NCBI GenBank assembly: GCA_903931835.1
Contig: CAIZEE010000258.1
Coordinates: 1-40,449 of the forward strand
DNA from: an uncultured Elstera sp.
Lineage (GTDB): Bacteria; Pseudomonadota; Alphaproteobacteria; Elsterales; Elsteraceae
DNA length: 40,449 bases
Direction: 5' to 3'
Shown: piece by piece, positions 24,210 through 29,422 of the stretch
Numbering within the stretch: the first letter of the stretch is position 1
Layout of the letters: each line of letters opens with the position of its first letter
Notes under the pieces: model-generated
What the model saw: only the letters and a program-made list of their open reading frames with translations
Told to the model about the DNA's origin: nothing
Databases searched by the model: none
Program-made: the position numbers and the translations under genes

Positions 24210-24238
24210 TTGTCATCGCCTTGTCATGAAACTGTAAT
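24210..24238 (+). promoter_or_regulatory. Pho box (PhoB binding site), three 11-bp-spaced half-sites
   Basis: TTGTCAT-CGCC-TTGTCAT-GAAA-CTGTAAT at 24210, 24221 and 24232, upstream of pstS. Confidence 0.9.
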
Positions 24239-28165: not shown

Positions 28166-28351
28166 AGCCTACGCCACCGGCGCCGAGCCGCACCGCCTCA
28201 TTGTCGAAATAGCACCGGCCGGCGATCTTTCGCATTGGCGGCGAGTCGCGTTTGCTCTAGAACGTGGCTAGGAGATCCACGGTGCAGGCACAGTATCAGC
28301 CTAGCGCTCGTATCCCGACTCGCGGGATTCGCGAACAGGAGGGCCACGCCG

Positions 28352-29422
28352 GTGAAACAGATCAAGATTTCAGTCAGAAACTTTCACTCGATTTGCCACT
28401 CGGCTATTGTAGCGATAGTTGCCATCTCCTTTATAACACAGGCAAAACCAGCGCATGCTGATTACAAGATAACTATATTGCATATTAACGATGTATTGTC
28501 GCGATTGGAGCCGGTTGACCATAACGGCGTGCCATGCCCGATCGAAGTCCGCTTCTCCGCGACCTGTATCGGTGGCGCTCCCCGGTTGGCGGCGGTGATA
28601 AAGTCGGCGCGTGAGCAGTCCGGCAACGTGATATTGCTCGATGCCGGTGGCGAGTTTACCGGCTCGCCCCTATGGGATTCGCAGAAGGAACGGGCCATCT
28701 CCAGCGTTCTGACAAGGCTGGGTGTTGATGCGATGGGGGTTGGGTTTACGGAATTCGCCGAAGGCTCGCCGGTGCTCGGTCAGTTCATTCGCGAGGTCCG
28801 TTTCCCGCTGTTGTCGGCCAATGTCAATGTCGAGCGCGATCCCTATCTGGTCGATCAGATTTGGCCGTTCGTGGTCATCGATCGCGGTGGCGACCGGATT
28901 GGCTTGATCGGCTACAGTTCGGAGGATATCAGGACGAAATCGCATCCCTCGCTTGAGACGCGCATCGATCCGATCGAGAATTCGGTCAAATTTGCGGTGC
29001 GCATGGTGAAGAGTATGGGCATCACGAAGATCATCGCGATCAGCCATGCGGGCTATGCGCGCGATAAGCAGATCGCTGAGAATGTTGAGGATATCGACGT
29101 CATCGTTGGCGGCAATTCCCACACCTACCTTGCCAACAAGGTAAAGGAAGCCGAAGGGCCGTACCCGACCGTGATCAAGGGGCCAACCAAGAAACCGGTG
29201 TTGGTGGTGCAGGCGGGCGCGTTTGGTCAGTATGTCGGCAAGCTCGATGTCGTGTTCGATGCGAAGGGCGTCGTCAAATCCTGGAAGGGTGACCCGATCC
29301 TGCTCGATGTTGGCGTTACCGAGGATGCCGACATGCGCGCAGCGCTCAATGTCATGGAGGCTACAGCCGCCCAGCAGGCCTCCGTCAGCCCCGTCGCAGC
29401 AGCGGCCGGAACAGTCCGGTAG
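28352..29422 (+). CDS. 5'-nucleotidase/UshA-family metallophosphoesterase-like secreted protein with degenerate metal-site motifs
   Basis: GTG at 28352 after SD AGGAGG; signal peptide; family-level motifs recognisable but altered: HINDVLSR, DAGGEFTGS, GFTEFAEG, ISHAG, GGNSHT. Confidence 0.8.
   Translation: MKQIKISVRNFHSICHSAIVAIVAISFITQAKPAHADYKITILHINDVLSRLEPVDHNGVPCPIEVRFSATCIGGAPRLAAVIKSAREQSGNVILLDAGGEFTGSPLWDSQKERAISSVLTRLGVDAMGVGFTEFAEGSPVLGQFIREVRFPLLSANVNVERDPYLVDQIWPFVVIDRGGDRIGLIGYSSEDIRTKSHPSLETRIDPIENSVKFAVRMVKSMGITKIIAISHAGYARDKQIAENVEDIDVIVGGNSHTYLANKVKEAEGPYPTVIKGPTKKPVLVVQAGAFGQYVGKLDVVFDAKGVVKSWKGDPILLDVGVTEDADMRAALNVMEATAAQQASVSPVAAAAGTVR

Follow-up and report, generated by a model that had tools for sequence, protein, structure and literature searches.

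A candidate periplasmic pseudoenzyme of the 5'-nucleotidase family in Elsterales

We analyzed a 40,449-nucleotide stretch of Elsterales DNA (the window, here always the whole stretch) and found a gene for a short relative of CD73/UshA-type 5'-nucleotidases that lacks most of the active site and all of the C-terminal domain. With moderate confidence, we favor the view that its product is a lineage-specific periplasmic pseudoenzyme serving as a binding protein, independent of the pst genes that precede it. A preliminary description had proposed a secreted pseudoenzyme attached to the pst cluster. The pseudoenzyme part of that proposal stands, as catalytic residues and C-terminal domain are lost in orthologues too, whereas the pst cluster did not hold up as a clue to function.

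Results

The window protein contains the N-terminal metallophosphatase fold of the 5'-nucleotidase/UshA family (COG0737), as profile, PDB, and model searches all indicate. Its nearest matches are CD73 (E 2.4e-50) and, among the NCBIfam models, NadN (E 1.3e-40), both confined to residues about 32–340. The Pfam Metallophos model (PF00149) matched neither the window protein nor two orthologues, even at E 0.01, and the C-terminal 5_nucleotid_C domain (PF02872) was not found in the window protein by Pfam; a full-length paralogue from Elstera (L027) reaches 55 bits with PF00149 and 157 bits with PF02872. No member of the short clade has the C-terminal domain in the family alignment, and the window leaves no room for one, since the convergent anmK ends 3 bases downstream of the gene. 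The N-terminus is signal-like by eye and is predicted as a helix in the models; this putative signal peptide suggests that the protein would be exported to the periplasm (Table 1).

Table 1. Positions of the pseudo-5'-nucleotidase gene and its features in the window
Feature	Position	Strand	Description
Pseudo-5'-nucleotidase gene	28352–29422	+	GTG start at 28352, stop 29420–29422, 356 aa; NCBIfam and PDB matches
Shine-Dalgarno-like AGGAGG	28337–28342	+	9 bases 5' of the GTG start; read directly from the sequence
Putative signal peptide, residues 1–36	28352–28459	+	Likely cleavage between AHA and D; basic start, hydrophobic helix 8–28 in models, AxA motif; by eye
Metallophosphatase-fold domain, residues 38–332	28463–29347	+	CD73 match; AlphaFold pLDDT 90; Foldseek to CD73
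Motif NDVL (46–49)	28487–28498	+	Asp kept, metal His lost
Motif DAGG (97–100)	28640–28651	+	Bridging metal Asp lost
Motif GFTEFA (131–136)	28742–28759	+	Metal Asn, catalytic His and Asp lost
Motif SHAG (231–234)	29042–29053	+	His kept in the window protein; lost in Elstera and one G004 copy
Motif GGNSHT (253–258)	29108–29125	+	Metal His lost, last His kept

An AlphaFold model built from 30 sequences (mean pLDDT 90) superposes on CD73 chains at an rmsd of 1.5–1.8 Å over about 305 columns (Foldseek); because full-length enzymes are part of this alignment, the model may be biased towards their fold. A model from 8 sequences (pLDDT 77) gave the same matches at 3.4–3.9 Å. The modelled domain ends near residue 332, with no second domain after it. 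We predict with confidence that the metallophosphatase fold is retained. The relation to the UshA/5'-nucleotidase metallophosphatase domain and the missing C-terminal nucleotidase domain, which the preliminary description had read by eye, are thus borne out by profile searches, gene spacing, and structural superposition.

We searched nine genomes of the order, all from one family and three of them from the single genus Elstera (G001, G002, and G003). Besides the window genome, short forms are present in all three Elstera genomes, including Elstera litoralis Dia-1 (G002; NZ_LAJY01000009.1, match at 1610–2569), and in a genome of another genus (G004). The latter holds one complete copy plus two fragments at contig ends, a 5' piece and a 3' piece, which probably represent one second copy; the fragments share no alignment columns and are not paired in the tree. 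Two genomes (G007 and G008) have full-length proteins only, and neither form was found in G005 and G006.

Across the class (385 genomes), every match from beyond the family with an E of 1e-66 or lower lies in a frame of at least 516 aa. Likewise, all 44 matches outside the order (E 1e-40 or better) among 399 Pseudomonadota genomes are in full-length frames, the shortest of 524 aa. A single-sequence scan of genome contigs gave no matches; an alignment scan of genome contigs recovered Elstera litoralis and two MAGs, together with one Fusobacteriales protein that is full-length. The short form is restricted to Elsterales in the genomes sampled, and these samples leave room for rarer occurrence elsewhere. 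All short forms fall into one clade with full support (100/100) in a tree computed with the metal-site columns removed. The window protein is the first branch of this clade, which fits its retaining more remnants of the metal site than other members.

The three Elstera species carry, next to the short form, an intact full-length 5'-nucleotidase (L027:7634–9247 and orthologues), about 40% identical to the short form over the shared domain. These paralogues have frames of 551–607 aa, keep all metal ligands, and contain both Pfam domains (tested for L027). The presence of both forms in all three species would suit a short form that regulates the full-length enzyme as its partner or serves as its decoy, e.g. 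by competing for a binding surface. We regard this as rather unlikely, because no close full-length paralogue was detected in the window genome (93% complete) or in G004 (75% complete), and because CD73 dimerizes through its C-terminal domain, which the short form lacks.

Alignment with 20 full-length alphaproteobacterial relatives places the losses in the active site. Six residues of the site (H49, D100, N132, H133, D136, and H255) are absent from the window protein, and three (D47, H232, and H257) are retained; the complete dinuclear metal-ligand set and the catalytic His–Asp pair required in the COG0737 family were not found in it. The active-site set consists of the metal ligands and the catalytic His and Asp, the standard textbook set for UshA and CD73, with positions taken from the motif alignment and not from a structure file. 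Among 37 positions invariant in the 20 relatives, six of the eight active-site positions are lost against three of the 29 others (Fisher p 0.0008, a descriptive value because the active-site set was fixed after the losses had been seen). H257 was left out of this count, as some full-length relatives have Asn there.

The motif changes NDVL, DAGG, GFTEFA, and GGNSHT, and the persistence of SHAG and the last His, are as the preliminary description had reported them, and the same ligands are absent from the orthologues in two other genera, some with additional losses. Each of the clade's seven rows shows loss of catalytic residues; two of these rows are fragments covering part of the sites only. 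Across the members covering each site, H49 is replaced by L, R, A, or Q, D100 by G or N, N132 by F, D, P, or A, H133 by T, R, or A, D136 by A, V, or S, and H255 by N, A, or S; D47, C62, C72, and the glycines of the fold are invariant. Because the substitutions differ between genera, no new conserved metal site is apparent, and no metal ligands at shifted positions were seen in the alignment.

Judging from these residues, the window protein is very probably catalytically dead. D47, H232, and H257 might still hold one metal ion, and their retention would be expected of an enzyme with altered chemistry, e.g. at a one-metal site. Such an enzyme is nonetheless unlikely, given that neither H232 nor H257 survives in Elstera or in copy a of G004 and that the substituted positions vary as described.

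Gene order in the window is pstS, pstC, pstA, pstB, the pseudo-5'-nucleotidase gene, and convergent anmK. Tandem overlapping Pho-box-like sites, TTGTCATCGCCTTGTCAT and TTGTCATGAAACTGTAAT, at 24210–24238 (+), about 80–110 bases before pstS, would fit PhoB control of the pst genes; no Pho-box-like site was found in the gap upstream of the window gene. That gene shares its strand with pstB and starts 186 bases beyond it; no terminator-like site was found in the interval, and export would bring its product to where PstS works. This arrangement might be expected if the protein sensed phosphate or nucleotides by binding them and worked together with the Pst transporter encoded next to it, but the relatives make that role quite improbable. 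The three Elstera genomes, two of them >95% complete, have the short form and no detectable relative of the window PstS, whereas G004, G005, and G006 do have PstS relatives, and two genera of the order possess pst but not the short form. In G004, which has both, pst and the short form are on different contigs. In G004, G005, and G006, other genes follow pstB wherever the contig continues, and no short-form orthologue adjoining pst was found in the relatives. The metal- and phosphate-binding residues and the nucleoside-binding domain are also gone from the window protein.

We consequently rejected pst linkage as a functional clue, since neighbors and presence/absence disagree among relatives; neither linkage to pst genes nor consistent co-occurrence with them, the latter a check suggested in the preliminary description, was found there. 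The neighboring pst system is probably not the partner of the window protein. As a separate observation, the three Elstera genomes may take up phosphate another way.

In Elstera, the short-form gene lies between a divergent 2-hydroxyacid dehydrogenase gene and selO. The latter follows directly on the same strand in all three species, and this adjacency, seen at L020 8176–10695, L021 10872–13401, and L023 1562–3994, suggests an operon in this genus. As a general clue selO was also rejected: the linkage is seen in Elstera only, the SelO relative of the window genome (37%) is on another contig, and none was detected in G004. One short-form copy of G004 has a beta-lactamase-family gene beside it. 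Because the neighbors differ in all three genera, they indicate no process.

The short form is under purifying selection in Elstera. Nei–Gojobori dN/dS among the three species is 0.08–0.10, compared with 0.11 for selO; with dS near 1 these ratios are rough, yet far below 1. Selection was measured in Elstera only, as the genomes sampled include no close relative of the window gene. At about 1490–1610 of L023, the stretch of the E. litoralis copy that corresponds to the longer N-terminal region of the two sister species is in another reading frame, which points to either a frameshift or an assembly error just ahead of its signal region. Although a dying gene could look like the window gene, with domain and active site gone, and the E. 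litoralis copy seems frame-shifted, a decaying remnant without function is very improbable in view of selection similar to that on selO, intact frames in three genera, and the persistence in the window gene of a ribosome-binding site, a signal region, the cysteine pair, and the residues of the fold.

Discussion

Under the favored reading, a periplasmic binding protein independent of pst, a full-length CD73/UshA-type 5'-nucleotidase would have given rise in Elsterales to a non-catalytic descendant that lost the C-terminal nucleotide-binding domain and the dinuclear metal site. The exported descendant would then have been kept in the periplasm as a folded binding protein, and may act through its conserved fold by binding a partner, like other inactivated calcineurin-like folds. 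We infer the lack of activity, and also the mode of binding, for which VPS29 and polymerase B subunits provide the analogy.

Like CD73, Thermus 2z1a, UshA, and NadN (COG0737), the short form has the N-terminal metallophosphatase fold with conserved cysteines and glycines, at 32–35% identity to CD73-type structures (Foldseek alignments). Unlike CD73 and the bacterial 5'-nucleotidases, it combines the absence of a C-terminal domain with the loss of most invariant active-site positions. Dead phosphatase relatives are well known in eukaryotes. VPS29 has been called an inactive phosphatase fold (PMC7539009), and DNA-polymerase B subunits have an inactivated calcineurin-like fold kept for binding (PMC4996933); both are eukaryotic and intracellular and belong to other superfamily branches, so that they serve as analogies only. 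The UshA-like (seleno)proteins, represented by NCBIfam NF041198 and NF049981 and by an UshA-like COG0737 entry in PMC2398784, are likewise an unusual UshA branch, defined by a Cys/Sec motif. The two NCBIfam profiles match the window protein weakly, at scores far below the cut-offs (73 bits vs 275 and 18 vs 140). A limited literature search found no description of an exported bacterial dead phosphatase relative of the 5'-nucleotidase family, a weak indication of novelty.

More tentatively, Elsterales may have repurposed the half of a 5'-nucleotidase that once carried catalysis as a module dedicated to binding proteins in the periplasm, which would make it an extracytoplasmic equivalent of VPS29 in bacteria; we consider this possible, but doubtful. 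Similarity-based annotation would label the window protein a 5'-nucleotidase. In the three Elstera species the live and the dead form coexist in one genome, and two other genera apparently have the dead form alone, which makes the route from enzyme to non-enzyme testable in this order.
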